A stretch of DNA of 33,972 nucleotides from Gammaproteobacteria bacterium (lineage in GTDB: Bacteria > Pseudomonadota > Gammaproteobacteria > Acidithiobacillales > Acidithiobacillaceae), in NCBI GenBank assembly GCA_023381645.1, contig JAMCRJ010000015.1, positions 1 to 33,972 on the forward strand, written 5' to 3'. Under the pieces are notes generated by a model. That model worked only from the letters and a program-made list of their open reading frames with translations, was not told the DNA's origin and searched no databases. Below, in pieces: positions 3,838-33,972 of the stretch. Made by a program: the position numbers and the translations under genes. Within the stretch, counting starts at the first letter, position 1, and the number at the start of each line of letters is the position of its first letter.

Positions 3838-3901
3838 CGGTCATCAAACGAGCGAAGGCAAATACGTCGGCTGGATGCGATAACTAGATGCCATGCGCTC
3901 C

Positions 3902-4144
3902 TCACAAGCTGAAATACAAAGCAAGCAATGGCACCAGATTGAGCAGGAGTATACCGATCTTATAGACGGCCATTCCGGCGTAATGGACGGCGTCAAAAGT
4001 TTCGGATGATAGCTTGAACCAACGGCTATGCAGCCTGTACATCCAGTCATGGGCCCAGATGAACGCACCAGCCCAAATAAGGAGTAACGCATAGTTAATG
4101 CCAAGGGACCAAAGCAGAACGGTCTCCATTTCCTTTGCGTGCAT
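3902..4144 (-). CDS. small two-helix membrane protein (DUF6868-like)
   Basis: 80-residue protein with two hydrophobic segments, LLWSLGINYALLLIWAGAF and MAVYKIGILLLNLVPLLALY, joined by a polar loop with HDWMYRLHSRWFKLS and FDAVHYAG. This pattern matches small conserved proteins I know as DUF6868; no function is established. ATG 4144 is chosen because GAGGTG lies just upstream, whereas the ATG five codons later has no room for a ribosome-binding site. The gene faces away from apt and towards the cytochrome b gene. Base composition is closer to the downstream chromosome than to the GC-rich block on its left. Confidence 0.75.
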   Translation of the reverse strand: MHAKEMETVLLWSLGINYALLLIWAGAFIWAHDWMYRLHSRWFKLSSETFDAVHYAGMAVYKIGILLLNLVPLLALYFSL

Positions 4145-4460
4145 GACACACCTCGCGCCGCAGAAATTGCCGTTGTAACACTTTACACAGGCCATGGAAC
4201 AGCTACACCTCCAACGCAATTTGGGCAGCATACTTACCGCACCATCCATATGCCCCAGTGCGTCAAGTGACCCCAAAAGCACCTGCTACTCATCCGCGTC
4301 GTTAGTACTCACTTCTGTCGTAGAATCTACTACGGCTCATAGCATTACACAATCCAACCCGTGATTCTGCAGTATCAAACGGCTTTTCTTGGAAGACCCC
4401 CACCACTGAGCTACCCACCCCCCCTTCCCCTATGGCAGAATGCACATAAAAGGAGCGCCC
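4145..4460. other. 316-base spacer, no supported gene
   Basis: Separates the divergent DUF6868-like gene and apt. It contains a short palindrome, GTAGA-A-TCTAC (about 4319-4329), and a C-rich run before apt. Promoters for both flanking genes are expected here but I cannot assign -35/-10 elements with confidence. A stretch around 4398-4435 resembles a tRNA D-arm on the minus strand, but there is no matching T-arm or acceptor stem. Confidence 0.5.
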
Positions 4461-9081: not shown

Positions 9082-9954
9082 CTAAATAGTGAGATGCATA
9101 TCTTCCAGCATCCGCTCGATACGCGGGCCGAGAATGAGTTCCATCGCGTAGCCCATCTTCGTCCCTGGGATCACCAGGGTATTGGAACGCGACATAAAAC
9201 TGCCCGGCAACATCTGCAGGAGGGTGGGGAAATTCTCTTCCTTGGGATCCCGGAAGCGGATGACCACCATGCTTTCGTCCGGAGTCGGGATGTCGCGGGC
9301 AATGAAAGGATTGGAGGTATCCACCAGCGGTACACGCTGGAAATTGATGTGCGCACGGGAGAACTGCGGGGTGATGTAGTGGATATAGTCAGGCATGCGG
9401 CGCAGGATGGTATCCACAATCGCCTCGGCCGAGTAGCCGCGCTGGGCATTGTCACGGTGAATCTTCTGAATCCACTCCAAATTGACCACCGGCACCACAC
9501 CCACCAGCAGATCGACGTAATTGGTTACATCCACAGCGTCCGTCTTCACGCCACCATGTAACCCTTCGTAAAACAGCAGGTCGGTCCCCAGAGGGATATC
9601 CTGCCAAGGGGTGAAGGTGCCCGGTGCGCTGCCCCGCAGTTCTGCCTCCGGTTCGTCGTGGACGTAGTAGCGCATCTGCCCATGGCCGCTCTCGCCATAC
9701 TCGCGGAACAGGCGCTCCAACGCTTCAAAATCATTGCCTTCCGGGCCGAAATGACTGATGGTTTTACCATCGGCCGCAGCTTTGGCAATGGCTTCGCGCA
9801 TCTCGTTGCGGTTGTAACGATGGAAGCTGTCGCCTTCAATGACGACCGGGTCAATTCTCAGGCGCCGGAAAATGTCATGGAAGGCATGTTTGACGGTGGT
9901 GGTACCCGCCCCTGAGGAACCAGTCACGGCAATGACGGGATGTTTTTTGGACAT
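9082..9954 (-). CDS. prk: phosphoribulokinase
   Basis: 290 residues, the normal length for the proteobacterial (class I) enzyme. P-loop GSSGAGTTTV at about residues 12-21, followed by IEGDSFHRYNRNEM, HFGPEGNDF, the LLFYEGLHGG segment carrying the catalytic-base region, and FSRAHINFQRVPLVDTSNPF. The reaction is ATP-dependent phosphorylation of ribulose 5-phosphate to ribulose 1,5-bisphosphate, the Calvin-cycle step that supplies Rubisco. ATG 9954 is preceded by GAGG at suitable spacing; upstream in-frame codons have none. A consensus-like promoter sits about 70 bases upstream. The neighbours are the methyl-cycle genes metF, ahcY and metK rather than other Calvin-cycle genes, which agrees with what I recall of the cbb4 region of A. 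ferrooxidans (cbbP in that nomenclature). Confidence 0.95.
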   Translation of the reverse strand: MSKKHPVIAVTGSSGAGTTTVKHAFHDIFRRLRIDPVVIEGDSFHRYNRNEMREAIAKAAADGKTISHFGPEGNDFEALERLFREYGESGHGQMRYYVHDEPEAELRGSAPGTFTPWQDIPLGTDLLFYEGLHGGVKTDAVDVTNYVDLLVGVVPVVNLEWIQKIHRDNAQRGYSAEAIVDTILRRMPDYIHYITPQFSRAHINFQRVPLVDTSNPFIARDIPTPDESMVVIRFRDPKEENFPTLLQMLPGSFMSRSNTLVIPGTKMGYAMELILGPRIERMLEDMHLTI

Positions 9955-10877: not shown

Positions 10878-12283
10878 CAGTAGCGGTACGCATCCGCTTT
10901 GAAGGGGCCATCGGCAGACACGCCGAGGTACCTGGACTGCGCGTCGGTCAGACGGGTCAACACCCCCGCGAAGCCTTCCACCATATAGCGGGCCACCTCT
11001 TCATCCAGCGCCTTGGGCAGGACGGTAACGGAGATATGACCGGCCTTCTCCGCCGCAGGCAGATCGGCAAAACGTTCGCCGTACAGATGAATCTGCGCCA
11101 GCACCTGGTTGGCGAAAGAACCATCCATGATTCTGCTGGGGTGCCCCGTCGCGTTGCCCAGGTTCACCAGACGCCCCTCAGAAAGCAGGATCAGGTAATC
11201 ATCACTATCGGGATCAAAGGACTTGCCGGCACCCATATCCCGATAGACCTTGTGAACCTGCGCCTTCACTTCGTCCCAGGCCCAGGTTTTACGCATGAAA
11301 GCGGTATCGATTTCGTTATCGAAATGGCCGATGTTACAGACCACTGCGCCCTTTTTGAGCGCCTTGAGCATGCCGGCGTCACAGACGTTGAAGTTGCCGG
11401 TCGCAGTCACCAGCAAATCTATCTGGCCGAGCAGGCCGCGATCGATGCAGGCATCCGTGCCATCGTTGATGCCGTTCTTATAGGGCGACACGACTTCATA
11501 ACCATCCATGCAGGCCTGCATGGCACAGATGGGGTCCACCTCGGTGACGCGAACAATCATCCCTTCCTGACGCAGGGAGGCCGCCGAACCCTTGCCCACG
11601 TCGCCATAACCCAGCACCAACGCGCGCTTACCGGAGAGCAGATGATCGGTGGCCCGCTTGATGGCATCACTCAAAGAATGGCGGCAACCATACTTGTTGT
11701 CGTTCTTGCTCTTGGTCACAGAGTCGTTGACGTTGATGGCGGGGATTTTCAGGCTGCCTTCCCGTGCCATTTCCCAGAGGCGATGTACACCAGTAGTGGT
11801 TTCCTCGGAGACGCCGTGGACGACGGCCAGCAATTCCGGATATTTCTGGTGCAGCAGGCCGGTGAGGTCACCGCCGTCATCCAGCAACATGTTCGGGCGC
11901 CAGCCGTCAGGCCCGGCAATGGTCTGTTCGACGCACCACCAATATTCATCTTCGGTCTCACCTTTCCAGGCAAAAACCGGGATGCCCGCCGCCGCGATCG
12001 CCGCCGCCGCCTGATCCTGGGTGGAGAAAATGTTGCAGGAGGACCAACGCACTTCCGCGCCGAGCGCCACCAGCGTTTCGATGAGCACCGCAGTCTGGAT
12101 GGTCATGTGGATGCAGCCAGCGATACGCGCACCCTTGAGGGGTTGTTGCGCCTGGTATTTGCGGCGAATGGCCATCAGTGCCGGCATTTCCGTTTCGGCA
12201 ATGCGGGTTTCTTTACGTCCCCAGTCGGCAAGGGAAATATCGGCGACTTTGTAATCAGCGGAACTTTTGAGCACAGCATTCAT
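10877..12283 (-). CDS. ahcY: S-adenosylhomocysteine hydrolase
   Basis: 468 residues. It reversibly cleaves S-adenosylhomocysteine to adenosine and homocysteine, relieving product inhibition of methyltransferases. Seen: [26 protein letters not shown], the [14 protein letters not shown] catalytic Lys/Asn segment, the NAD-binding glycine motif [13 protein letters not shown], and the C-terminal PFKADAYRY that reaches the neighbouring subunit's NAD site. ATG 12283 is chosen because AAGGA lies at good spacing; the in-frame ATG three codons upstream would abut it. A SAH riboswitch occupies the leader, so the gene, with metF coupled behind it, should respond to its own substrate. Confidence 0.96.
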
Positions 12284-12307
12284 GTAAGTCATTCCTTGAG
12301 CATGAAA

Positions 12308-12436
12308 GCGAGCGCGGTTTTACAGATGGGAAGCATAGGTCGAGCCTGATCGTCGCCCCCGCCGCCTTTCCGGCCGGGAAAGCATCCAGCCGGGACGGCA
12401 AAGCGAGGTATGACGACTGCAGCGCCCCTCGACCCG
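12308..12436 (-). promoter_or_regulatory. SAH riboswitch upstream of ahcY
   Basis: On the minus strand the leader carries GGGTCGAGGGGCGCTGCAG at its 5' side, a variable stem, then CAGGCTCGACC closing the P1 helix, and CGCGCTCGC further down. The GCGCT of the first segment and the downstream GCGC-type segment can form the pseudoknot expected for this class. These features match the SAH-element consensus as I remember it (Wang and Breaker, proteobacterial ahcY leaders). Binding of SAH is expected to raise expression. It ends about 25 bases before the ahcY start. Confidence 0.85.
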
Positions 12437-23564: not shown

Positions 23565-24176
23565 GTGACTTCTGCCATACAGGTGCTGATCCCCGTAGCG
23601 GATGGTTTTGAGGATATGGAGGTAGTGATCTCCTGCGATATTCTGCGACGGGCGGGTTTGCAAGTGGTCCTCGCCGGACTGGAAACCGGTTTGGTCACCG
23701 GTGGACGGGGGCTGCGCCTGCAACCAGATGCGCTGTTCGCCGATGTGGCCAGCGCAGATATCGATGTGATCCTGCTTCCCGGCGGGATCGGGGGTGTGGA
23801 ACGCATGGCAAAGCATCGGCCGCTCATCGGGCTCCTGCAGGAAAGAACCCGGCAGGGGCAGATCATAGCCGCCATCTGTGCCGCACCCGGCATGCTGGCA
23901 GCCCATCACCTGCTCGATGGCCGTCAGGTCACCGCTTATCCCGGCACCCTCGATCCCCAGAGCCGGGATTATACCTACCAGGAAAATGCCGTGGTGGTCG
24001 ACGGTCCCCTGATCACATCCCGCGGACCGGGTACAGCCATGGATTTTGCCCTTACCCTGGTGGAATTCCTCCTCGGCCCTGAAAAACGTCAGGAAACGGA
24101 GGCACCACTACAACGTAGCACCCCTGAGACTTCCCCTTTGTCCGCCACTATGGATAATAGGGCCAGCATCACTTAA
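23565..24176 (+). CDS. DJ-1/PfpI-family protein (YajL-like)
   Basis: 203 residues. Flavodoxin-like DJ-1 fold: IQVLIPVADGFEDMEVV (the conserved Glu of the DJ-1 site), DVILLPGGIGGVERM, the nucleophile elbow AAICAAPGML with the reactive Cys, and TSRGPGTAMDFALTLVEFLLG. This spacing matches YajL/ThiJ-type proteins (about 190 residues), proposed chaperones or deglycases; the biochemical role is disputed. The start is GTG 23565 with AGGAG and AAGG upstream. The 138-base gap before it (23427-23564) contains no gene I can support. Confidence 0.87.
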   Translation: MTSAIQVLIPVADGFEDMEVVISCDILRRAGLQVVLAGLETGLVTGGRGLRLQPDALFADVASADIDVILLPGGIGGVERMAKHRPLIGLLQERTRQGQIIAAICAAPGMLAAHHLLDGRQVTAYPGTLDPQSRDYTYQENAVVVDGPLITSRGPGTAMDFALTLVEFLLGPEKRQETEAPLQRSTPETSPLSATMDNRASIT

Positions 24177-24191
24177 CCTGAAGGAAAATTT

Positions 24192-24968
24192 ATGAAACTT
24201 CGCGTGGTCATTCTTGCTGCCACTGTCAGCGCTTTTGCTATACCTGCTTTTGCTGCCCCCGTCGCCACCGTCAATGGCGCCACCATTGATAACAGCGAGG
24301 TGCAGGCCATCATGTCCATGAGCCCGGCGCTTGCCAAGGAGCCCAATGCCCGCGAGCAGGTGGTGCAGAATCTGGTCAACATGGAAGTGCTTTCGCAGTA
24401 CGCCGTCAATCACAAGCTGGGCCAGACCGCTGACGTGAAAGAGCGCCTGGCCATGGCCAAGCGTCAGATCCTGGCCGATGCGGCGGTCGAACAGTACGTG
24501 AAAGAGCACCCCATTCCGGAAACTGACATTCAAAACGCCTACAACAAATTCGTTCAGGCCATGGGCAAGAAGGAATTTGAAGTGCGGCACATCCTGGTGA
24601 AGACAAAGTCCGAGGCCGACAAGGTCATGGGCGATCTCAAGGCCGGTCAGAAGTTCTCCGCTCTGGCCGAAAAATACTCCATCGACAAGGCCAGCGCCGC
24701 TCATGGTGGCGAGCTGGGGTGGATTGTCCCCGGTATGGTCGTTCCGCCCTTCGCCCAGGCCATCGAGACAGCGCCTATCGACAAGCCCGTTGGCCCGGTG
24801 CAGACCCAGTTCGGCTACCATGTGATCGAGGTGCAGGCGACGCGTGCCCTGACCCCCCCGCCACTGAGCGCCATGAAGGATCGCATCAAGATGCAACTGC
24901 AGCAGCAGGAGGCCGCCAAGTTCGTCTCCGACCTGCGCAGCCAGGCGAAGATCAATATCACCAAGTAA
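24192..24968 (+). CDS. periplasmic parvulin-type peptidyl-prolyl isomerase
   Basis: 258 residues: a signal peptide (VVILAATVSAFAIPAFA), a SurA-like N-terminal helical chaperone segment (about 24-125), and one parvulin domain at about 130-225 (EVRHILVKTKSEADKVM, GGELGWIVPGMVVPPFAQA, TQFGYHVIEV). It catalyses cis-trans isomerisation of prolyl bonds in exported proteins and assists folding. AAGGA precedes the ATG. It follows the DJ-1 gene by 15 bases and ends before a clear terminator, so it closes a transcript. PpiC/PrsA-like naming is possible; SurA is longer, with two parvulin domains. Confidence 0.9.
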   Translation: MKLRVVILAATVSAFAIPAFAAPVATVNGATIDNSEVQAIMSMSPALAKEPNAREQVVQNLVNMEVLSQYAVNHKLGQTADVKERLAMAKRQILADAAVEQYVKEHPIPETDIQNAYNKFVQAMGKKEFEVRHILVKTKSEADKVMGDLKAGQKFSALAEKYSIDKASAAHGGELGWIVPGMVVPPFAQAIETAPIDKPVGPVQTQFGYHVIEVQATRALTPPPLSAMKDRIKMQLQQQEAAKFVSDLRSQAKINITK

Positions 24969-24989
24969 TTTGGATATCGCCCAAACCAA

Positions 24990-25021
24990 AAGCGCCGGGA
25001 ATTTCCCCGGCGCTTTTTTTT
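24990..25021 (+). terminator. intrinsic terminator after the parvulin gene
   Basis: Stem AGCGCCGGG / CCCGGCGCT with a 6-base loop, followed by a run of eight T. It lies about 20 bases after the stop codon. The A-run before the stem could make it weakly bidirectional. Confidence 0.92.
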
Positions 25022-25082
25022 CACCGCCCGCGCGCCCACCTTCGAAGGACGTGGCTGATGCGGAGTTGGCTCATGGGACACC

Positions 25083-25111
25083 TTGCCAGCGCAGAAGGCA
25101 GGCGCCACAAT
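25083..25111 (+). promoter_or_regulatory. candidate clpS promoter
   Basis: TTGCCA, 17-base spacer, CACAAT, 35 bases before the clpS start and downstream of the preceding terminator. Spacing is ideal but the -10 is imperfect. Confidence 0.35.
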
Positions 25112-25145
25112 GACAGCGAATAGTAAACATTATGGAGTGCAGGTC

Positions 25146-25454
25146 ATGGGTAGAACGCAACATCGTCGCAGTACCATCCTGGAGCGCGAACCGCAGGCAC
25201 AGGAGCCCCGTATGTACCGGGTACTACTGGTAAATGATGATTTCACTCCCATGGACTATGTCGTGCATATTCTTGAAGCGTATTTTCACAAGCCCCATGA
25301 CGAGGCAGTGGCAGTGATGATGGCCGTCCATCAACAGGGCAAGGGATTGTGCGGGATTTTTCCTTATGATCTCGCAGAAACCAAGGTGGCCCTGGTCACT
25401 GCCGACGCACGGCAACACCAGCATCCACTGCGCTGTATCATGGAAAAGGAGTAA
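25146..25454 (+). CDS. clpS: ClpS adaptor protein
   Basis: 102 residues. It binds N-degron substrates and delivers them to ClpA. Seen: the flexible N-terminus, MYRVLLVNDDFTPMDYVVHIL (the binding-pocket NDD-T-MD motif), AVAVMMAVHQQGKGLCG, and a C-terminal HPLRCIMEKE. ATG 25146 is chosen because GGAG and AGG lie just upstream and the length then fits the family; earlier in-frame starts (25083 TTG, 25110 ATG) lack good sites. clpA follows after 3 bases. Confidence 0.94.
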   Translation: MGRTQHRRSTILEREPQAQEPRMYRVLLVNDDFTPMDYVVHILEAYFHKPHDEAVAVMMAVHQQGKGLCGIFPYDLAETKVALVTADARQHQHPLRCIMEKE

Positions 25455-25457
25455 ACC

Positions 25458-27716
25458 ATGATCGACAAACCCCTGGAACAGTCCATCAATCAGGCCTTCC
25501 AGATTGCCCGCCAGTACGGACATGAATATGCCTCCGTGGAACATCTCCTACTGGCCCTGCTGGACAACCCCGACGGTATGGACGTGCTCAGCGCCTGCGG
25601 CGCCGACCGCACCCATCTGTCTGTGGAACTACGGCAATTTCTGGAACGCAAAGTGCCCGCCATGGGTCCGGCGGGCACCGTCAATACCCAACCGTCCGTG
25701 GGTTTTCAGCGGGTCATTCAGCGCGCGCTCTACCATGTGCAGTCGGCGGGTAAGGATGCGGTTTCGGGGGCGAACGTCATTGTCGCCATCTTCGCCGAAA
25801 GGGAATCCCACGCTGTTTATTTCCTACAGAAAGAACATGTGACAAGACTCGATGTGGTCAATTTTCTGGCGCACGGCATGCGCAAGGATGACGTCATGGA
25901 TGAGGAAGAAGAGGAAGTCGAGGGTACCACGGAAAAGAAAGGGGATAGCAAGGACCCGCTCACAGCTTATGCGCGCAACCTCAACGCCATGGCGCGGGCA
26001 GGACGGCTGGACCCACTGATCGGACGCCAGGATGAGTTGATCCGGGCCCTGCAGGTGCTGGCACGGCGCCGGAAAAACAATCCCCTCTTCGTCGGTGAAC
26101 CAGGCGTCGGGAAAACCGCTATCGTCGAGGGCCTTGCGCGTGCCGTTGTCGCCCGCAAGGTGCCGGAGATGCTGGAAAATGCGACGATTTATGCCCTGGA
26201 TTTGGGGGCGTTGATCGCCGGATCCCGCTACCGGGGTGACTTTGAAGAACGCCTGAAAGGGGTGCTGAAGGCGCTGCGCAAAAAACCCAACAGCATCCTG
26301 TTCATCGACGAGATTCACACCCTGATCGGCGCCGGAGCCGCTTCGGGTGGCGCCATGGATGCCTCCAATCTGCTGAAGCCGGCTCTCGCCTCCGGTGAAC
26401 TGAAATGTATCGGGGCGACCACTTATCAGGAGTTCCGCCAGTATTTTGAAAAGGATCGCGCGCTAACCCGCCGCTTCCAGAAAATTGACGTGCCGGAGCC
26501 CTCTCAGGAAGAGTCCGTGCAGATTTTGCGCGGACTGAAGGGGCAATTTGAACAGCATCATGGCCTACGTTATACCGACACGGCGTTGCGTGCGGCGGTG
26601 GAGCTGTCCGTCAAGCACATCCACGATCGTCATCTACCCGACAAGGCCATTGATCTCATCGACGAGGTGGGTGCCGCGCAAGCGCTTTTGCCAGCCTCCC
26701 GACGCAAGAAGAGCATCGGTGTGCATGACATCGAAGAAATGGTCGCCCGGGTGGCCCGTATTCCGGGCAAGAGCGTCTCTACCGATGATCGGCAGGCCCT
26801 GAAGAATCTGGAGCGGGATCTGGGATTCGTCATCTATGGTCAGGAAAAGGCCATCCACGAACTCTCCGCGGCCATCAAAATGGCGCGGGCAGGCCTGCGC
26901 CACCATGAAAAGCCGGTGGGGAGTTTTCTCTTCTCCGGCCCGACCGGCGTGGGTAAGACCGAACTCAGCCGGCAGTTGGCCAGCCTGCTCGGCATTCCGT
27001 TACTGCGCTTCGACATGAGTGAATACATGGAACGGCATACGGTGTCACGGCTCATCGGTGCACCGCCAGGATATGTCGGGCATGACCAGGCCGGACAACT
27101 GACAGAGGCAGTGAGCCGCAATCCACATGCGGTGCTGTTGTTGGATGAAATTGAGAAGGCGCACCCGGATATCTTTAATGTGCTCCTGCAAGTGATGGAT
27201 CACGGCAAGCTGACGGATGCCGGCGGGCGCACGGTGGACTTCCGCAATGTGGTGCTCATTATGACCACCAATGCGGGCGCCGAGTCGCGCGGCAAGGCGA
27301 ATATTGGTTTCATGAACACCCCCCAGAGTGATGGCGGACAGGAAATGGAGACCATCCGCCGGGTCTTCGCGCCGGAGTTCCGCAATCGCCTGGATGCCGT
27401 CGTACCCTTCACACCGCTTTCCAAGGAGACGGTGCTGCACGTGGTGGACAAGTTCGTCATGGAGCTGGACGAGCAGTTGCTGCAAAAGGGCTATAGCCTG
27501 GAAATCAGCGCTGAACTGCGGCAATGGCTGGCGGACAAGGGCTACGACCCGCAGATGGGCGCACGGCCGATGACGCGGATTATTCAGGAGCACCTGAAGA
27601 AGCCGCTGGCGGAGCATATTCTCTTTAGCGACCTGCCCAAGGGCACACGAATCACTGCACGTCTGGAAGGCGGTGAGGTGAAGCTGGAGATACCCGTGCC
27701 CGCACATCAAGACTGA
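25458..27716 (+). CDS. clpA: ClpA ATPase, Clp protease unfoldase subunit
   Basis: 752 residues. Double Clp-N repeat (1-145), an acidic linker with [11 protein letters not shown]+ module 1 (Walker [14 protein letters not shown], Walker [10 protein letters not shown]) and module 2 (Walker [12 protein letters not shown], Walker [14 protein letters not shown]), then a ClpB_D2-small domain ([10 protein letters not shown]). The middle domain of ClpB is absent, which with the clpS neighbour identifies ClpA. It unfolds proteins and feeds them to ClpP; the IGL-type ClpP loop appears as NIGFM. GGAG precedes ATG 25458. Confidence 0.97.
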
Positions 27717-27719
27717 CGG

Positions 27720-29195
27720 ATGGATAAGGCATTATTGCATTTTGACAATACCTATGCGCGCGATCTGGAGGGTTTTTTCGCCCCCTGGCAGGCCGCCGCT
27801 GCTCCGGCGCCCCGATTGCTGCTATTGAACTACGCGCTAGCCGAAGAACTGGGGCTCGATAGCGCGGCGCTGGATAGCGATCTCGGCGCCGCCATTTTCT
27901 CGGGAAACGAAGTGCCGGAAGGGTCGCATCCGCTCGCCCAGGCTTATGCAGGGCATCAATTCGGTCATTTTTCCCCGCAGTTGGGCGATGGACGGGCCCT
28001 TTTGCTCGGCGAACTGATCGATCGCCACGGTCGGCGCCGGGATATGCAACTGAAAGGCTCCGGTCGCACGCCCTTTTCGCGGGGCGGCGATGGCAAGGCG
28101 GCACTGGGGCCGGTGCTGCGCGAATATGTCATCGGCGAAGCCATGCATGCGCTGGGTATTCCCACGACCCGCGCGCTGGCCGCCGTCACGACAGGGGAAA
28201 CCATCCGTCGGGAAACAGCGCTCCCCGGCGCCATCCTCACCCGCATCGCCGCCAGCCATATTCGCGTGGGCACCTTTCAGTTCTTTGCCGCACGCAACGA
28301 AAGTGCCAGGGTCAAACAGTTGGCCGACTACACTATTGCTCGCCACTACCCCGCCTTGAAAGAGGCCGATAATCCCTATCTCAGCCTCTTTGCTGCGGTA
28401 TCCGCCGCACAGTCCGCGCTCATCGCACGCTGGATGCTGGTCGGTTTCGTTCACGGTGTGATGAATACGGACAACATGAGCATCGCCGGCGAAACCATCG
28501 ACTACGGCCCCTGCGCCTTCATGGACGCCTATGATCCGGAGACCGTTTTCAGCTCCATCGACACCCAGGGCCGCTATGCCTACGCCCACCAGCCGTTGAT
28601 TGCACAGTGGAATCTCACGCGCCTCGCCGAAACCCTGATTGATCTGGTTCACCCCGACCCCGATGAGGCCGTGCGCCTGCTGACCGGACAAATCAACGAA
28701 TTTCCCAAGCTCTACACCCGCCACTGGCTCGATGGCATGCGCGCCAAGATGGGCCTGGCCACGGCGGAGGACGGCGATCTCGCGCTGGCGCAAGCTCTTC
28801 TGTCCGCCATGGAAGGCCAGAATGCCGATTACACCCAGGTCTTCCGCGGTTTATCAACGGCAGTGCGCGGTGATCCGGCGCAGGTTCGCGCCCACTTTGC
28901 CAACCCGGCGCCGTTTGATCTTTGGTTGGCGCAATGGCAGGCCCGGCTGGCGCACGAAAGCACCACCGCGGAAGCGCGCGCCGAGGCTATGGATCAGGTC
29001 AACCCGCTCTACATACCCCGCAACCACAAAGTCGAGGAAGCCTTGGCCGCCGCTACGCAGGACCAGGACCTCACCCCGTTCAAAGCGCTGCTGGCGGTGC
29101 TGGAACAACCCTTCGCGGAACGTCCGGGGCTGGAGAGCTATGCCCAGCCCGCCCCCGAGAGTTTTGGTCCTTTCAAGACCTTTTGCGGGACGTAA
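27720..29195 (+). CDS. selO: SelO-family protein adenylyltransferase
   Basis: 491 residues, pseudokinase fold that transfers AMP to Ser/Thr/Tyr hydroxyls of target proteins. Seen: YAGHQFGHFSPQLGDGRALLLGE, QLKGSGRTPFSRGGDGKAAL, REYVIGEAMHALGIPTTRAL, VHGVMNTDNMSIAGETIDYG (metal-binding Asn/Asp) and the C-terminal FCGT with Cys three residues from the end, the position occupied by selenocysteine in animal SelO. It starts 3 bases after the clpA stop, so it shares the clpSA transcript. SelO is linked to redox stress and S-glutathionylation in other bacteria; here the location suggests a connection to protein quality control. Confidence 0.93.
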   Translation: MDKALLHFDNTYARDLEGFFAPWQAAAAPAPRLLLLNYALAEELGLDSAALDSDLGAAIFSGNEVPEGSHPLAQAYAGHQFGHFSPQLGDGRALLLGELIDRHGRRRDMQLKGSGRTPFSRGGDGKAALGPVLREYVIGEAMHALGIPTTRALAAVTTGETIRRETALPGAILTRIAASHIRVGTFQFFAARNESARVKQLADYTIARHYPALKEADNPYLSLFAAVSAAQSALIARWMLVGFVHGVMNTDNMSIAGETIDYGPCAFMDAYDPETVFSSIDTQGRYAYAHQPLIAQWNLTRLAETLIDLVHPDPDEAVRLLTGQINEFPKLYTRHWLDGMRAKMGLATAEDGDLALAQALLSAMEGQNADYTQVFRGLSTAVRGDPAQVRAHFANPAPFDLWLAQWQARLAHESTTAEARAEAMDQVNPLYIPRNHKVEEALAAATQDQDLTPFKALLAVLEQPFAERPGLESYAQPAPESFGPFKTFCGT

Positions 29196-29228
29196 CGCAT
29201 TACCATAACGCCGTTCCTGAACGCCACG

Positions 29229-29837
29229 TTAACGGTCCTGCGCAAGCACCTCGGCCACGCGCGCCTGAAGCACCGGAATGAGTTCTTCCTCGAACCACGG
29301 ATTGCGCTTCAGCCACAGATTATTACGCGGGCTGGGATGCGGCAGCGGTATCCGGTTGGGCCAGTTTTCGCGCCACGCATGAACCACCTCCGTCAGCGTT
29401 CCGACCTCGGCGGGAAGGTGATAAGCCCGGGCATACTGGCCGATGACCAGGGTGAGTTGCAGATGCTGCAAATGCGGCAGTAATTCCCCATGCCAGGCAC
29501 GAGCGCACTCTGGCCGCGGCGGCAAGTCTCCGGATGTTCCGGTGCCTGGGTAGCAGAATCCCATGGGCACGAGCGCCACCCGTCGGGCGTCGTAGAATAC
29601 CTCTCTGGAGATCCCCAGCCACGCACGAAGCCTATCGCCGCTGGCATCGTTGAAGGGAATACCTGTTTCATGCACCTTCCTGCCCGGTGCTTGCGCAGCG
29701 ATCAAAATACGGGCGCGCGAATCCATCTGCAGCACCGGACGCGCACCAAACGGCAGGTGCCCGGCACAAAGTTCGCAATGGCGAACTCGGGTGAGTAGCG
29801 CGGCGAGAGGATCACCGTACGTTGCGGGGTCAGGCAT
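29229..29837 (-). CDS. uracil-DNA glycosylase-family protein
   Basis: 202 residues, uracil-DNA-glycosylase-like (COG1573-type) fold. Motif 1 appears as AAQAPGRKVHETGIPFNDASGDRLR and motif 2 as HPSPRNNLW. Cysteines CELC near the N-terminus and two more in FCYPG and PECARAW (15 residues apart) are placed like the 4Fe-4S ligands of family-4 enzymes. It may remove uracil from DNA or have another base substrate; some members are uncharacterised. It converges with selO (33-base gap). ATG 29837 begins a plausible N-terminus, with a weak ribosome-binding site. Confidence 0.75.
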   Translation of the reverse strand: MPDPATYGDPLAALLTRVRHCELCAGHLPFGARPVLQMDSRARILIAAQAPGRKVHETGIPFNDASGDRLRAWLGISREVFYDARRVALVPMGFCYPGTGTSGDLPPRPECARAWHGELLPHLQHLQLTLVIGQYARAYHLPAEVGTLTEVVHAWRENWPNRIPLPHPSPRNNLWLKRNPWFEEELIPVLQARVAEVLAQDR

Positions 29838-29926
29838 CCAAACATTAACCGGGATGGGGGAGGTTCTCACAATCCTACGCCCCCTGGCAAACTGGATTTG
29901 GAAACGGCCTGAGCCCAAATTCTCGA

Positions 29927-30139
29927 TTATTTATTGTCAGAACCCGTTTCACGCTTGTAGTTTTCGTACGTCGTGTTGGTATTGCTCAAGCATTTTTCAC
30001 GCTCGCCTTGACCGGGCACATGTAGGCATTGGTTGCGTTGGTAGGACTGACCAGCAGCATAGAGCTGCTGGGAGGTGCAACCGGAACAAAGGCTAAGGGA
30101 AACGGAGGCCAGAACAAATCCAAAAAATCTCTGTGTCAA
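29927..30139 (-). CDS. small lipoprotein
   Basis: 70 residues starting at TTG 30139, with AGGGGG 6 bases upstream. A short hydrophobic signal ending LSLCSGC gives a lipobox-like site with lipid-accepting Cys at about residue 21. The mature part is polar (QLYAAGQSYQRNQCLHVPG, EREKCLSN, YENYKRET), with two further Cys that could form a disulfide. Similar small conserved lipoproteins of unknown function occur in other Proteobacteria. A TATACT -10-like element at about 30188-30193 (minus strand) may drive it. Confidence 0.65.
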   Translation of the reverse strand: MTQRFFGFVLASVSLSLCSGCTSQQLYAAGQSYQRNQCLHVPGQGEREKCLSNTNTTYENYKRETGSDNK

Positions 30140-30235
30140 AACGACCCCCTATATAAAAGTTGCGTTCTCGTGCCGCGCGATATGGACCAGTATAACTTAA
30201 AAAATCGCGTAGGCATCGTCTGCTAGCCCTGCTGG

Positions 30236-31267
30236 CTAGTTCACAATAATCACGTCGTCAATGGGGCGACGTAAGCTGAAGGGCGCCGTGGGCCCATGGC
30301 CGAAACGCACCATGAGCAGCGCGTGTTCTTCACTGAGGTTCAGCCACGATTCGAACTGCGTCCGCAACGGACGCACTTCGATCGGCTGGTTGATGAAGGC
30401 GGTGCGGACATTAAGCGCGGTCGCTTGCAAGGCGAAGCGCTCGTACGCGCGGCCGGCTTCGACCCACGCGGCCTTATCGTCTTGGCGTGACACGAAAACC
30501 GCCACGCCGGCTGAACTTCTGATGTTCGTGGCATCGGTCTCGGCTTGCCCTTTGGGGGTGAGCACCAGCCCGATGATCCATTTCGCCAACCAGGTCGGCA
30601 ACGCCGGTTGGCCACTGGTTCGCCCGGACAGGCCATCGCCCGTGCGTATTGCCTCACCAGGATTGAAGCGAATCCAGGAAACGAGTTCGTCTCGAAAGGC
30701 TCGATCAGTCAGTTGGGCGACATTTCCCCGAGTGACGTGGTCGATGACCGCGCCCTTCTGCGCCGCCGACAACAACATGATTACACGGACGTTCCGCCCT
30801 TCACCCGCTTTCTCCAGCATTTCGAGCTCCGGCGCCTCAAGTGGCGTGCCGTCATAGGCCGTCCTCACGCACTGGCGCTTGGTAATGGCCCGATAGAGAT
30901 CCGTTGCATGAGCCGAGGCGTCACGGGTCAGAAGAACGATAACGCCGTCTTCGCCGGGGTCGAATCGTACATCAGCCGAGAAACCTTGCGCTGCAGCTGC
31001 ATGAACGAGATTCTCGGCTGCGCAGCCCAGGCTCTTGAAGAGGTGACTGTCATCTGGATCGACCGCCGGGCAACGCCGTGAGAAGTCGGGCAGGATGGTG
31101 ATCGAGTCTTGCTGAATGCGGAACCTCCAAGGCTGGGTGTTGTGACTGGAGGCCGCGAGCGTGGCATGCCGAATCAGCTCTCTGGTATCCAGCACCCCGT
31201 CTGCCTGCGCAGTTCCCGGCCGCCGAATGTCGCTTGCTGCTTTGTCGTAATCGTCGGTCGACGACAT
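30236..31267 (-). CDS. nitroreductase-family (Acg-like) oxidoreductase
   Basis: 343 residues. Two nitroreductase-like halves: the N-terminal half has the typical SSHNTQPWRF FMN-contact motif, and the C-terminal half has VAVFVSRQDDKAAWVEAGRAYERFALQATAL with FINQPIEVRPLR. This double layout resembles Acg-family FMN-binding proteins, some of which may have lost catalysis. The start is ATG 31267, preceded by GGAGGA; an open frame continues upstream to 31426 but crosses the attC site. It is the first gene beyond the last attC of the cassette array and I find no attC after it; a 6-base inverted repeat (CTAGCC/GGCTAG, 30224-30240) spans its stop. Confidence 0.8.
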   Translation of the reverse strand: MSSTDDYDKAASDIRRPGTAQADGVLDTRELIRHATLAASSHNTQPWRFRIQQDSITILPDFSRRCPAVDPDDSHLFKSLGCAAENLVHAAAAQGFSADVRFDPGEDGVIVLLTRDASAHATDLYRAITKRQCVRTAYDGTPLEAPELEMLEKAGEGRNVRVIMLLSAAQKGAVIDHVTRGNVAQLTDRAFRDELVSWIRFNPGEAIRTGDGLSGRTSGQPALPTWLAKWIIGLVLTPKGQAETDATNIRSSAGVAVFVSRQDDKAAWVEAGRAYERFALQATALNVRTAFINQPIEVRPLRTQFESWLNLSEEHALLMVRFGHGPTAPFSLRRPIDDVIIVN

Positions 31268-31308
31268 TGTTCCTCCGCTAAGAGCCGTCGGAATCAGCGT
31301 TCCTTGAC

Positions 31309-31377
31309 GCCGAACGTCTGAATTAACCGGCTGGCGCGGCTTTATGCGCAAGGCCCGGTGGAATGACGGGTTAGGGC
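31309..31377 (-). other. attC recombination site (BrnTA cassette)
   Basis: 69-base site. On the minus strand it opens with GCCCTAAC (R'') and closes with GTTCGGC (R'), with imperfectly complementary arms ACCCGTCATTCCACCGG and CCGGTTAATTCAGACGTT around a GC-rich centre. The closing core deviates from the GTTRRRY consensus at one base. The brnA stop codon lies inside R''. Confidence 0.75.
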
Positions 31378-31595
31378 TTGGTCGGCCAAGCAATTTGCAC
31401 TTGGCGATGCTGCGTAACGCAGTCACGAAGATATAGGTTGATAAGGCTCTGGTATGGAACCCCAGCCTCTACAGCCATATCTTTAAAATAGGTAACCACA
31501 TCTTCAGAAAGACGCATGGTGACGGGTTTCTTGAGCTTCGATGCGTAAGGATTCCTGCGCGATTTCATGGTGGAAAGATCGTATTCAGCTTTCAT
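31371..31595 (-). CDS. brnA: BrnA-like antitoxin
   Basis: 74 residues. A basic N-terminus is followed by a ribbon-helix-helix-type region: LKKPVTMRLSEDVVTYFKDM, AGVPYQSLINLYLRDCV. BrnA proteins neutralise BrnT and repress their own promoter. Its ATG overlaps the toxin stop (ATGA, 31592-31595), giving toxin-first, coupled translation as usual for brnTA. The last codon and stop fall within the attC R'' core, marking it as the 3' gene of a cassette. Confidence 0.85.
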   Translation of the reverse strand: MKAEYDLSTMKSRRNPYASKLKKPVTMRLSEDVVTYFKDMAVEAGVPYQSLINLYLRDCVTQHRQVQIAWPTKP

Positions 31596-31879
31596 GGCAT
31601 TTCACTTCCGTAAAAAGTGCTTTCAGTTTTGGTGGCCTTGCGGGCAGAGATGATGCGGATGATGTTGCCTGCTTCACGCTCGCAATGGCAGACAAGAAGC
31701 AAACGCCCTCCTGTGCTCATGCCCAACAACAGAAAACGTTCCTCGCTCGTCGAATGCTCCTCGTCGAAAAATTGGACAGCAAACTCGTCATAGAAAACAG
31801 ACTGGGCTTCCTCGAAGGAAACCCCGTGCTTCTTGATGTTTACCGTAGCCTTGGCCGAATCCCACTCGAACTCAATCAT
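31592..31879 (-). CDS. brnT: BrnT-like ribonuclease toxin
   Basis: 95 residues. Seen: FEWDSAKATVNIKKHGVSFEEAQSVF at the N-terminus, EERFLLLGMS in the middle, and IIRIISARKAT at the C-terminus, all standard BrnT/COG2929 signatures (RelE-like fold). It would cleave RNA under stress when BrnA is depleted. The ATG lies only about 7 bases downstream of the -10 element, so the transcript is nearly leaderless. The toxin and antitoxin form one integron cassette; TA cassettes are known to stabilise arrays. Confidence 0.9.
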   Translation of the reverse strand: MIEFEWDSAKATVNIKKHGVSFEEAQSVFYDEFAVQFFDEEHSTSEERFLLLGMSTGGRLLLVCHCEREAGNIIRIISARKATKTESTFYGSEMP

Positions 31880-31885
31880 ACATAC

Positions 31886-31913
31886 AGTGTATTGAAATGC
31901 TATCGGATGTCAA
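31886..31913 (-). promoter_or_regulatory. brnTA promoter with palindromic operator
   Basis: TTGACA, 16-base spacer, TACACT on the minus strand. The -10 overlaps the palindrome ATAC-AGT-GTAT (31882-31892), a likely BrnA/BrnTA operator. The promoter starts 4 bases inside the cassette from the attC junction, so the module carries its own expression signal. Confidence 0.75.
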
Positions 31914-31917
31914 GAAA

Positions 31918-32009
31918 GCCCTAACGCTTGAGCTAAGCGGCGGCCGCCGCGATGCCTGACATTCTACCGCAACCGACCCGCAGCCATCCGCTTGCGCGAA
32001 TAGTTATAC
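31918..32009 (-). other. attC recombination site (methyltransferase cassette)
   Basis: 92-base site. Minus-strand GTATAAC (R'') and GTTAGGGC (R') cores; the arms CTATTCGCGCAAGCGG and CCGCTTAGCTCAAGC are largely complementary. The segment GCGGCGGCCGCCGCTTAGCTC near the R' end is typical of attC sites. Confidence 0.85.
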
Positions 32010-32173
32010 GTTGCCACCACAGTTGGTTGAAAGCACTTAGGGCAGGACCCTGGCCAGCGCCAAGAATGGAACCTTGATGAGTAGCTCCGGCGTGAGCGCA
32101 CCCAAGACAAAGCATGTCCAACCCAATCCTACCAAGGCGGCCTGTTTCAAGCCGGGTTCTTTTGCACTGTTTT
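32010..32173 (-). other. non-coding tail of the methyltransferase cassette
   Basis: 164 bases between the methyltransferase stop and its attC. A frame of 85 codons (31933-32190) runs through it into the attC but overlaps the upstream gene, lacks a ribosome-binding site and matches no family I know. It could be an eroded second gene. Confidence 0.4.
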
Positions 32174-32647
32174 TCACAACTTGCGCACAAGTGTCAACCC
32201 ATCCGCAAGGGGTAGCATAGTTGCGTCAACACGGGGATCGTTCTTGACCTTCTCGTTTAGGTTCCGCATTGCGTCGATGTCCGCATCGCTGATCCTCGAC
32301 CTGAGATCAGCATCAAGTACGCTTGGATCAACCACTGACCCGAACAGAAGAACATTGTCGATCGCAATGACTCCACCGGGCCGAAGCAATGAAATGGATT
32401 TTTCATAATAGTGGTCGTAGTTTCCTTTGTCTGACCCAGTATAAGTGCCTATCTCCAGCGCCATATTGGCGCCTAAGACCTTCACAAGAAATGACATGAA
32501 CTGCCCTTGCTCGGGCGGTATCTGCATTATGGCGTTCGGGTCTCTATCTGTTTCTTCTCTCAGACACTTCAGTACCTCCGATTCTCGGAGCGATGACAAA
32601 ACGTAGTCACGAAGCCCTTGAGAAAATTGGATTTCCGACTTCTCCAT
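32174..32647 (-). pseudogene. O-methyltransferase with internal deletion
   Basis: 157 codons, reading frame open. The N-terminal part (LREETDRDPNAIMQIPPEQGQFMSFL, ALEIGTYTG) and the C-terminal part (DKGNYDHYYEKSISLLRPGG, VIAIDNVLLFGSVVDP, PLADGLTLVRKL) match class I SAM-dependent O-methyltransferases of the caffeoyl-CoA OMT type, which are about 220 residues. The segment that should lie between GTYTG and DKGNYD (roughly 60 residues, including the acidic SAM-ribose and metal residues) is missing without a frameshift. It is probably inactive. ATG 32647 has GGAGAGAAGG upstream. It is the gene of an integron cassette. Confidence 0.8.
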
Positions 32648-32662
32648 AACCTTCTCTCCGAA

Positions 32663-32726
32663 ACCTAACGTGAAAGCTCAGGGGCGGCGCGCTTTTTGCG
32701 GCGTCCCTTGGAGCGCCTTGTTAGGC
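32663..32726 (-). other. attC recombination site (VOC cassette)
   Basis: 64-base site, the clearest of the four. Minus strand: GCCTAAC core, AAGGCGCTCCAAGGG arm, central GC stem, CCCCTGAGCTTTCAC arm, GTTAGG core. It overlaps the last 49 bases of the VOC gene. Confidence 0.92.
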
Positions 32727-33220
32727 AGTAGACGCCAAAAAGTAAAGTCCGGGTGTTTTTCAATCCATGCTTTCACTTGAACCCGTGACCGCCGTATCTC
32801 TCGAACCGCCGGAAGAAATGGAACATATGCCAATTCCCAACGGATGCCGCTAATGTCTTCAAAAAACACCGCATAGTAGCCAGGGCTATATTGCGGATAT
32901 TCTGCCGGTGGATCTGTGACTTCTACGCCTTGACTTCGCAGAAACTCATAGAATCTTCCCACTTCTTTACGACTCTTGGCCCACAAAGCCAAGTGATGAA
33001 TCCCGGCTCCGCCTTTACTTACTGGCACTGCTTCAGGAGCGGCACGGTGTACTCCAATTGCGCTGTGAGGAAAGGCTAAGTAATAAACTGCTTCGAACCC
33101 GCCTGCATCCGCCTTGAAACTCCAATAACCAAGCCAACCGAATATTGCGTCATAGACTTTGATTGACCTGTCATAATTAAGGACGGTGATATCGACATGG
33201 TTTATTCCTCGTAGCCGCAA
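32678..33220 (-). CDS. VOC/glyoxalase-bleomycin resistance-fold protein
   Basis: 180 residues. Vicinal-oxygen-chelate fold: N-terminal RGINHVDITVLNYDRSIKVYDAIFGWLGY with a metal His, GIHHLALWAKS with a second, and SGIRWELAYVP with a metal Glu. Members isomerise, cleave or bind small electrophiles, antibiotics or fosfomycin-like compounds; the substrate here is unknown. The start is TTG 33220, preceded by AAGGGG at 7 bases; the ATG in GGAATAAACCATG lies in another frame. The last residues (NKALQGTPQKARRP) are encoded by the attC site, a common hallmark of cassette genes. Confidence 0.85.
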   Translation of the reverse strand: MRLRGINHVDITVLNYDRSIKVYDAIFGWLGYWSFKADAGGFEAVYYLAFPHSAIGVHRAAPEAVPVSKGGAGIHHLALWAKSRKEVGRFYEFLRSQGVEVTDPPAEYPQYSPGYYAVFFEDISGIRWELAYVPFLPAVREIRRSRVQVKAWIEKHPDFTFWRLLPNKALQGTPQKARRP

Positions 33221-33243
33221 TTTGTTGCCCCTTTATTTTTAAC

Positions 33244-33316
33244 GCCTAACACGTTCAAGGTAACCGGCGCTCCGCCGGCTTTTCGGCAGAGCGCCCGGTT
33301 GACCGCAGGGTTGGGC
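33244..33316 (-). other. attC recombination site (SMR cassette)
   Basis: 73-base site. Minus strand: GCCCAAC core, TGCGGTCAACCGGGCGCTC arm, central loop, GAGCGCCGGTTACCTTGAACGT arm split by mismatches, GTTAGGC core. It lies 8 bases after the SMR stop. Confidence 0.9.
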
Positions 33317-33324
33317 GTCTCGGC

Positions 33325-33657
33325 TCATGAGTGAGAGACGGTGGTTGAAAACAGGTTGAGGACGACAACACCGGCGACAATGAGCGATATCCCTATGATT
33401 GCCGGAAGATCGAGAGCTTGCCCATAGAGAACCCACGCGATTAACGCAATTAGGGCAACACCCGCGCCCGACCAGATTGCGTAGGCCACCCCAATCGGAA
33501 TTGTCTTGAGTGTGAGTGAAAGGAAATAGAACGCCGACGCGTAGCCAATGACAACGATCGCCGAAGGCCATAAGCGCGAGAACCCTTCCGATGCCTTCAA
33601 GGCGGACGTGCCGATAACCTCACTAATAATTGCTACGGCGAGAAATATCCATTTCAT
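33325..33657 (-). CDS. Qac-type small multidrug resistance efflux protein
   Basis: 110 residues, four membrane helices. SMR signatures: [22 protein letters not shown] with the proton/drug-coupling Glu at residue 13, [22 protein letters not shown] (helix 2), [19 protein letters not shown] (helix 3) and [14 protein letters not shown] (helix 4). It exports quaternary ammonium and other lipophilic cations in exchange for protons, as a dimer in the inner membrane. Length and motifs are close to integron-borne QacE/QacF/QacH proteins as I recall them. The start is ATG 33657; an upstream in-frame ATG (33687) falls at the intron junction. Confidence 0.92.
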
Positions 33658-33686
33658 TCGTGTGATCCTCAGTATGGAGCCGCCCA

Positions 33687-33972
33687 ATCGGGATAGGAAG
33701 AAGCCTCACGGCCCCTCCCTCCCACACCACCGAACGTACGGATCACGTATCCGGCGGTTCGATGGATTGAATTCTTACCGGGCCGCAAGGCTCGGCACCC
33801 CCAGGTTCTTGAAGTAGCACAATGGTAACGCCAACGCCGTGGCGGCTGTCTTCGACAGCCGCCACGGCCCATGCGCCAACTTGCTGGTGTTCCACGCGGG
33901 AGGAATGACGGGTTGGGCCTACAGGTCACCGGGTTTTAACCCCGTATGTTTGGAAATGCGGGCAAGCATACG
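33687..33972 (-). mobile_element. 3' end of a group II (IIC-like) intron, runs off the window
   Basis: On the minus strand the segment contains the maturase C-terminus, then a domain V-like hairpin (33727-33760: ACCG ... CGGT lower stem, CGGAT/ATCCG upper stem, CGC triad as in class IIC), then a domain VI hairpin (about 33689-33722) with a bulged A in CCTATCCC eight bases from the 3' end CCCGAT. The intron would end at 33687, followed directly by TGGGC, the inner part of an attachment core (GTTGGGC). The 5' part lies outside the window, so intactness is unknown; an in-frame stop in the maturase suggests a degraded copy. Confidence 0.7.
33775..33918 (-). pseudogene. group II intron maturase, C-terminal remnant
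   Basis: The open stretch encodes AWNTSKLAHGPWRLSKTAAT followed by ALALPLCYFKNLGVPSLAAR and a stop. The AHGPWRLS...YF.LG.P.L pattern is the extreme C-terminus of group IIC-type intron reverse transcriptase/maturases. In the same frame, TAG at 33919-33921 interrupts the reading, and the 50 bases beyond it contain two short inverted repeats (CGTATG/CATACG and GGGTTAAAACCC) rather than maturase-like sequence. The protein is therefore probably truncated or rearranged here. Confidence 0.65.

Follow-up and report, generated by a model that had tools for sequence, protein, structure and literature searches.

Is the run of small genes at the right end of a 33,972-nt stretch of Acidithiobacillus DNA (hereafter the window, meaning the whole stretch that was analysed) an integron cassette array, and to which kind of integron would it belong when no integrase gene is in view? 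A first-pass annotation had read four attC-like sites, each behind a same-strand gene or gene pair, between positions 31,309 and 33,316. Our analysis favours, with a probability of about 0.75, a chromosomal integron at the udg locus of an Acidithiobacillus species, of which the array would form the distal (oldest) end. The integrase, if kept, would lie beyond the right edge of the window.

Recombination sites of the array

The attC search was based on a covariance model (R1) with 24 training sites located beside integron integrases of other bacteria. None of the training loci is titled Acidithiobacillus, and the sites of the window are absent from the training set. R1 took the place of the IntegronFinder model proposed earlier and was applied to the full 34-kb window on both strands with filters switched off. 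It recovered all four annotated sites (E ≤5.6e-5) and returned exactly these four matches at E<1e-3, all of them on the minus strand and thus on the strand of the genes:

33244-33316, minus strand: attC of the SMR cassette (R1 40.9 bits, E 1.6e-7; strict scan 50.5)
32663-32726, minus strand: attC of the VOC cassette (R1 42.2 bits, E 7.5e-8; strict scan 41.5)
31918-32009, minus strand: attC of the O-methyltransferase cassette (R1 29.5 bits, E 5.6e-5; missed by the strict scan)
31309-31377, minus strand: attC of the brnTA cassette, ending the array, with GTTCGGC as R' (R1 41.3 bits, E 1.2e-7)

The next-best match, at the 33244 site but on its reverse strand, reached 13.4 bits (E 0.25). Four sites are packed into 2.0 kb in a single orientation, and the order of gene then attC expected of integron cassettes was borne out. 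A strict core-and-stem scan of the window matched just two sites, 33244 and 32663, whose cores fit RYYYAAC...GTTRRRY. The other two deviate: site 32009-31918 has a long loop and GTATAAC as R'', and the R' box of site 31377-31309 departs from GTTRRRY. Minimum-energy folds gave a clear hairpin for two of the four sites; sites 32009-31918 and 31377-31309 fold without a clean attC hairpin, and theirs is seen only via the R1 alignment.

The strict scan yielded 0.13 matches per window on 30 dinucleotide shuffles at its own threshold and none on 30 further shuffles at a threshold of 40. On integrase loci used as a control, it found 41 matches in 289 kb on the array side of intI versus 3 in the 666 kb facing away from the array. 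No attC-type match was obtained from Rfam, either at the gathering threshold in the window, where the sole match is a SAH riboswitch, or at E up to 1 in 30000-33972, where an intron alone was found. The four sites, observed directly together with their strand, are real integron recombination sites.

Cassette genes and left flank

The genes between the sites were called as follows:

33325-33657, minus strand: SMR efflux cassette gene, 110 aa from ATG (Pfam PF00893, E 5.9e-34)
32678-33220, minus strand: VOC-family cassette gene (PF00903, E 5.1e-13)
32174-32647, minus strand: O-methyltransferase cassette gene (PF01596)
31886-31913, minus strand: possible own brnTA promoter, TTGACA-16-TACACT (such sites are at chance level in this region, with 2 found and 2.3 expected)
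31592-31879, minus strand: brnT, type II toxin, RNase (PF04365, E 6.9e-30)
31371-31595, minus strand: brnA, antitoxin (PF14384, E 4.7e-9)

The gene families named in the first-pass annotation were retained, with three corrections to the calls. The O-methyltransferase, described there as truncated, instead carries an internal in-frame deletion of 71 residues (157 aa versus 228 aa in relatives such as P0122 and P0125). The VOC frame enters its own attC, with the final 15 residues inside the site; a relative (P0003, 68%) has the C-terminal end FWRKLPDSSLS. For the SMR gene, the ATG at 33657 is the more likely start, and its product scored 156.6 bits against NF033137 (SMR_qac_int), under the cut-off of 188. 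In brnTA, the toxin gene comes first and overlaps the antitoxin gene by 4 bases, and both the BrnT and the BrnA domain are present; judged by these domains and the gene order, the pair is a BrnT/BrnA type II toxin-antitoxin system.

The cassette genes have a GC content of 0.49-0.53 versus 0.602 for the backbone. Among 57 relatives, the VOC protein has matches in only two at E ≤1e-10 (34-35% identity), one of them within the array of genome G012. The nearest BrnT in this set (83%) is encoded between other attC sites in a genome of the same genus, G017, whose brnTA cassette is 81% identical to that of the window over 550 nt. These distributions rule out a conserved operon, which the first-pass annotation had named as one possible refutation of its reading. 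Alone among the four cassettes, brnTA is seen to move independently of its neighbours. A plasmid search with the array DNA matched 126 records; in 20 of these, none of them from the group at 90-95%, all matches fall into the SMR gene, with 19 annotated as SMR/qac and one unannotated.

To the left, two genes follow the last attC:

30236-31279, minus strand: Acg-family nitroreductase (NF047509, 284.9 bits)
29229-29855, minus strand: udg, uracil-DNA glycosylase family (PF03167)

Because the nitroreductase gene has a backbone-like GC content (0.608) and no R1 match follows it in the window at E up to 10, it is not favoured as a further cassette and is probably none. Located between array and udg, it was not found in 17 Acidithiobacillus genomes. 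The proteins profile-scanned beside the array include no transposase.

Intron remnant and probable fifth cassette at the right edge

While the four sites stood, the extent given for the array was too small. It continues rightward past the SMR gene with three elements that had been missed:

33687-33897, minus strand: 5'-truncated group IIC-type intron, last 211 nt with the end of the maturase frame and domains V and VI (91.9% to an intron in locus L166)
33898-33918, minus strand: left half of the attC of a fifth cassette, R'' GCCCAAC and L'' (sequence by eye; right half lost)
33919-33972, minus strand: end of a fifth gene, 17 residues to the stop, running off the window (frame read)

The remnant corresponds to nt 1621-1831 of the L166 intron (1831 nt in full) and scored 37.8 bits (E 4.8e-5) against RF00029, for which the gathering score is 40. 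Its 3' junction is directly observed: the intron is seated in the R' box, the remaining TGGGC of which follows. The R1 match at 33873-33918 (10.2 bits, E 1.3) is too weak by itself, so the half site was called by eye. The window reaches 75 bases past the remnant, and the fifth gene would belong to a cassette as well.

The udg locus and integrases in relatives

No integrase gene had been seen in the window, in agreement with a tblastn search using the G012 integrase (best E 1.1). At least one attC (E ≤0.001) is present in 15 of the 17 Acidithiobacillus genomes, and seven have intI over the cut-off. Thiobacillus, Gallionella and Sulfuricella also yielded integrase loci. The earlier view of such arrays as unusual in chemolithotrophs is not upheld.

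In three relatives (G012, G015 and G014), an array reads towards udg, which forms the syntenic flank past the array end; these udg-adjacent integrons are direct observations. Among these three, an intact intI is found in G012 only (locus L035, C1:1662405-1663343), 13 kb from udg, encoding an integrase with 469.6 bits against TIGR02249 and the motifs H.LRHSFATH and YTH. Between intI and udg, seven attC sites (E ≤0.05) all point to udg, and the cassettes include SEC-C, cyclase, PFIN, VOC (35%), tautomerase, GNAT and others. This array and the region past its end contain transposase genes of the IS66 and ISL3 types. The last attC of the window and a G012 site share 90.6% identity over 64 bp. G015 is arranged likewise, with eight same-strand attC, a broken intI (fragment) and a left flank 95% identical to that of G012 over 2.1 kb. 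In G014, five attC sites, all on one strand, lead up to udg, and the best intI match is half a gene on a separate contig.

The nearest genome, G001, is 95% identical to the window over 24111-29860 and then diverges just before udg; it has one attC and no intI over the cut-off. G013 has 13 attC and likewise no intI over the cut-off, and G017 has intI fragments only. Overall, udg is present in ten genomes of the genus and adjoined by attC in three. Upstream of udg, no attC was found in about 18 kb in G007 and G017 or in 3.5 kb in G013, and the contigs of G001, G008, G010 and G016 stop 2 kb or less from udg.

The intron family and its target

Relatives of the intron have an attC match (E<1) at 17 of 23 junctions, none of them reversed. 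For 36 distinct 5' junctions (23 from relatives, 13 class-level), the attC was on the same strand in 23 at E<1 and on the opposite strand in none. The family inserts into the top strand of attC at R', mostly CGT/T, and runs along the cassettes; it does not show the bottom-strand insertion opposite to the cassettes that characterises canonical IIC-attC introns. It was present in 12 of 29 Acidithiobacillaceae genomes examined and also elsewhere in the class, and a reverse transcriptase (RT) search of 80 intI loci gave matches in KUB_Bin07 only. Longer relatives match RF02001 and RF01998 and some of them RF00029; the IIC label follows published class 1 cases and background on these introns.

These data suggest, at roughly even odds, a group IIC intron lineage with the attC top strand as its main target, entering the R' box in sense to cassette transcription and acting as a cassette-freezing element. 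The same-orientation introns of clinical class 1 integrons would be a branch of this environmental family and no isolated oddity, since it is common in Acidithiobacillaceae and occurs elsewhere in the class. As insertion destroys R', the introns would lock cassette boundaries, and, if spliced, would leave the cassette transcript intact. Repeated across species, the family reveals that group IIC introns can use attC in another way, on the opposite strand. It is the part that deserves specialist attention, and its full-length copies allow direct tests of strand choice, splicing and cassette locking.

Origin of the array

Under the preferred reading of a chromosomal integron end, the four complete cassettes and the partial fifth one would each have been captured as a circle by the integron integrase, and would read towards udg. 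An integron integrase recombines the folded bottom strand of attC. Transcription would start to the right, at a promoter close to the integrase, and brnTA may have a promoter of its own. A group IIC-type intron may then have entered the top strand of the R' box in the fifth attC, and a later deletion would have left only the 3' end of the intron and the left half of that site, which probably puts the boundary before the SMR gene out of reach of integrase cleavage. An integrase position beyond the right edge, this sequence of events, the block on excision and any activity of sites and genes are inferred.

The main competitor, which we regard as distinctly less probable, is a CALIN, i.e. real cassettes whose integrase was lost or which moved off, and which are now fixed. 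The window and its nearest genome, G001, lack intI (over the cut-off in the latter), as does G013 with its 13 attC, and G015, G014 and G017 retain fragments only; the truncated intron and the deletion within a gene point to an array that is old and in decay. However, 7 of the 17 genomes have intI over the cut-off, that of G012 lies at the udg locus in the expected direction, and the window stops short of the position where an integrase would be expected.

Insertion of a mobile integron or transposon-borne array beside udg is improbable. It could account for the divergence of G001 and the window just upstream of udg, and the transposase genes in and beyond the G012 array would suit it, but none was detected among the proteins scanned beside the array, and the same locus carries attC arrays in three relatives. 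Practically negligible is a reading of the cores as chance palindromes separating unrelated operon genes. Imperfect cores and unclean folds in two of the four sites would speak for it, but the R1 E-values of all four in one orientation, the strict scan and the shuffles rule this out, and the genes are not co-conserved.

Comparison with known systems

Sedentary chromosomal integrons are found in Vibrio, Xanthomonas and others and likewise hold one-way chromosomal cassettes separated by attC, including toxin-antitoxin cassettes and those of unknown function. In contrast to these, the array described here is short in view and without a visible integrase. Vibrio attC repeats are very uniform, whereas the four sites of the window are only 36-60% identical to each other. 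The G012 integron is of the same genus, has the same direction to udg and shares the one closely similar attC, but its cassettes differ. The array adds one more chromosomal integron, from acidophilic chemolithotrophs, to the environmental cassette pool; the parts of the literature surveyed say little on integrons in such organisms.

The CALIN of Halorhodospira halochloris also combines BrnT/BrnA cassettes with group II introns in the array (PMC7923331), but in another host and with introns of group IIB. Group IIC-attC introns such as S.ma.I2 are reported to use R'' of the bottom strand (TTGT/T) and to run opposite to the cassettes (PMC7923331, PMC8876359). Like the intron of the window they are group II introns seated in attC sites of cassette arrays, whereas the family described here uses the top strand at R' (mostly CGT/T) and runs along the cassettes. 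A same-orientation group IIC intron is noted in E. cloacae (Rodriguez-Martinez 2012, as cited in PMC7923331), and the group IIc intron Kl.pn.I3 is reported from an attC (PMC5027574). Relatives in the same orientation are found in the clinical class 1 integrons of pR148 and pPp47. These introns share with the family of the window the strand, the CGT/.../TAGAT junction and the CTATCCCGAT end, and their RT is 60-62% identical; they reside on multidrug plasmids, whereas the family described here is found in chromosomal integrons and its copy in the window is a dead 211-nt remnant.

Identification of attC sites

The sites and genes at 31309-33316 form an integron cassette array with no integrase gene in view, as the first-pass annotation had proposed. 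An attC covariance model (R1) run over the whole window with filters off returned four matches, all on the minus strand (E 7.5e-8 to 5.6e-5) and exactly at the four places claimed; the next-best match had E 0.25. The features of the region, read from right to left on the minus strand, are:

33897-33687, minus, 5'-truncated group IIC-type intron
from 33657 (ATG), minus, SMR efflux gene
33316-33244, minus, attC
32726-32663, minus, attC, following the VOC gene
32647-32174, minus, O-methyltransferase gene
32009-31918, minus, attC, upstream of brnT/brnA
31377-31309, minus, last attC
31279-30236, minus, Acg-family nitroreductase gene
30139-29927, minus, small lipoprotein-like frame

The training set of R1 originated from a strict scan, which required R'' RYNNAAC, R' GTTRRRY, an L-box stem and pairing of no fewer than 5/7 R-box positions. 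Checked at 73 of 80 loci of the integron integrase gene intI (seven left out), the scan gave 41 matches across 289 kb of array-side sequence vs 3 across 666 kb on the opposite side of intI. Of these 41, 26 lay on the minus strand and measured at most 80 nt, and 24 served for training after two irregular ones had been dropped. None of the training loci is titled Acidithiobacillus, although several are MAGs named just to phylum or class, and none came from the window. Applied to all 33,972 bases, the strict scan found two sites only, 33244-33316 and 32663-32726; at the threshold used here, 30 dinucleotide shuffles gave 0.13 matches per window, and a further 30 shuffles at threshold 40 gave none. 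The remaining two sites are imperfect, with R'' GTATAAC and a long loop in 32009-31918 and R' GTTCGGC in 31377-31309, and the minimum-energy folds of both lack a clean hairpin. In integron theory, a site retaining the original attachment sequence is expected to have an odd last R', and the odd R' of the last attC would agree with this expectation.

Cassette genes

The interpretation of the four genes or gene pairs between the sites as integron cassettes is right; their proteins were scanned against Pfam and NCBIfam. The SMR gene encodes 110 aa and its top NCBIfam model is an integron-type Qac family, under the cut-off. According to reading frame and site coordinates, the final 15 residues of the VOC frame, PNKALQGTPQKARRP, are encoded by the attC itself (32678-32726, minus); the closest VOC relatives have FWRxLP near the end in common, and a relative with 68% identity stops shortly afterwards. 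The O-methyltransferase comprises 157 aa vs 228 aa in relatives, 71 internal residues being absent in frame, presumably around the SAM-binding region. These 228-aa relatives (P0122-P0125) show 88-93% identity over the aligned 57% of the query. A sequencing error in the window is an unlikely cause of this gap, because a metagenomic protein of 157 aa (P0121, 94% identical) shares the gap, with full identity downstream of it. Both domains of BrnT and BrnA were detected by profile scan, and a promoter-like TTGACA-16-TACACT stands directly ahead of brnT, such sites occurring in the region at chance frequency. By term search, the main text of a paper on A. ferrooxidans toxin-antitoxin systems names neither BrnT nor attC (PMC4226512). 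The GC content of the cassette genes is 0.49-0.53 vs 0.602 in window 1-29000.

A conserved operon in relatives as the source of this gene order is ruled out by the distribution of VOC and BrnT among 57 relatives' genomes. VOC matches occur in two of them (34-35% identity), one inside the array of genome G012, and the top BrnT match (83%, one TGA counted within the stretch) is found in G017, where a brnTA cassette (81% over 550 nt) is flanked by attC at 1825-1894 and 984-1029 of locus L205.

Genomic context of the array

Such an array had been called unusual in a chemolithotroph, and this claim of rarity is not supported: the genus is Acidithiobacillus, and attC were detected by R1 at E<=0.001 in 15 of 17 of its genomes, the counts being lower bounds from 150 first-look candidates scored per genome. 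Integrases above the TIGR02249 cut-off are present in 17 of the 57 relatives, including seven of the genus, among which the copy of G010 runs off a contig end and that of G004 is in pieces. Integron integrases are also mentioned in one A. ferrooxidans genome paper (PMC6736930).

Window 24111-29860, the part set against the nearest of the genomes compared, G001, is 95% identical to it as far as the beginning of the uracil-DNA glycosylase-family gene udg; from there the two sequences diverge. This gene is present in 10 of the 17 genus genomes. In G012 (locus L035), intI (3400-4383) points away, and between 5106 and 12341 there are seven attC at E<=0.05, each on the plus strand and heading to udg at 17433; G015 carries eight attC, all plus, with an intI fragment, and in G014 five attC on a single strand lead to udg. 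Since the window shares this polarity, with attC and genes directed at udg, the preferred interpretation is that it represents the distal end of an integron at the udg locus, in which case intI would lie to the right, if still there. An attC array beside udg is not universal: none was found in ~18 kb upstream of udg in G007 and G017 or in 3.5 kb in G013, and in G001, G008, G010 and G016 the contig ends at most 2 kb from udg or inside it.

Between array and udg, the nitroreductase gene has no match among the 17 genus genomes, and the lipoprotein-like frame, located where the window departs from G001, has no Pfam match. Elsewhere in the window, a SAH riboswitch was detected at 12303-12436 (minus; RF01057, 46.3 bits vs a gathering score of 37).

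A group IIC-type intron in attC

The less ordinary part of the region is the group IIC-type intron, and it is the intron, rather than the array, that carries the testable question. The remnant lies upstream of the SMR gene within an attC R' box, shares the strand of the cassettes, and is 91.9% identical to the final 211 nt of a 1831-nt intron in the relatives' locus L166. Its domain V/VI scores 37.8 bits, slightly below the Rfam gathering score. Ahead of it, immediately after a stop codon, stands the left half of an attC, GCCCAACCCGTCATTCC; the 3' end, CTATCCCGAT, is directly followed by TGGGC, the remainder of the R' box.

In a relative's genome, KUB_Bin07, the intron begins after ...TTGAACGT and ends before TAGGC. 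Joining the flanks across the intron by script yields a complete attC in KUB_Bin07 and in L166. Altogether, two of six joined end pairs gave a scan match; the flanks of locus L167 are attC-like by eye (R' GTTAGCG) with no scan match, and the other three gave none. A second group II intron, carrying a long RT frame, splits the attC-borne intron of KUB_Bin07 (locus L038, 8547-12264), with matches to RF01999 at 9797-9915 and to RF00029 at 11541-11616.

Fourteen of the 57 relatives carry the intron family at E<=0.001 (G029 and G038 weak), 12 of them among the 29 Acidithiobacillaceae genomes. At class level, where a maximum of two candidates was scored per genome, 20 of 369 genomes have it at E<=1e-10. 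A same-strand attC match ends at 12 of 23 distinct 5' junctions of the relatives at E<0.01 and at 17 at E<1; the class-level figures are 4 and 6 of 13. Opposite-strand matches are absent from all 23 and all 13. Six and seven junctions, respectively, lack a same-strand match at E<1, and those without a match include unrelated sequence and a tandem intron in G015. There, two family copies lie head to tail (L036, 17755-17756), the second being a 5' piece adjoining udg; intron 5' pieces occur near udg in G001 and G012 too.

Comparison with known attC introns

IIC-attC introns are described as targeting R'' TTGT/T in the bottom strand, in the orientation opposite to that of the cassettes, with one same-orientation case from E. 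cloacae cited in the same article (PMC7923331), and a group IIc intron in attC is reported from a clinical integron (PMC5027574). Among the matches listed from non-subscription literature, titles and abstract openings describe neither this locus nor this intron family in Acidithiobacillus. The closest plasmid maturases show 60-62% identity. Nine plasmid maturase records reach at least 60%, and the context was examined in two, pR148 and pPp47: in both, the intron resides in a class 1 integron, in cassette direction and at the same junction.
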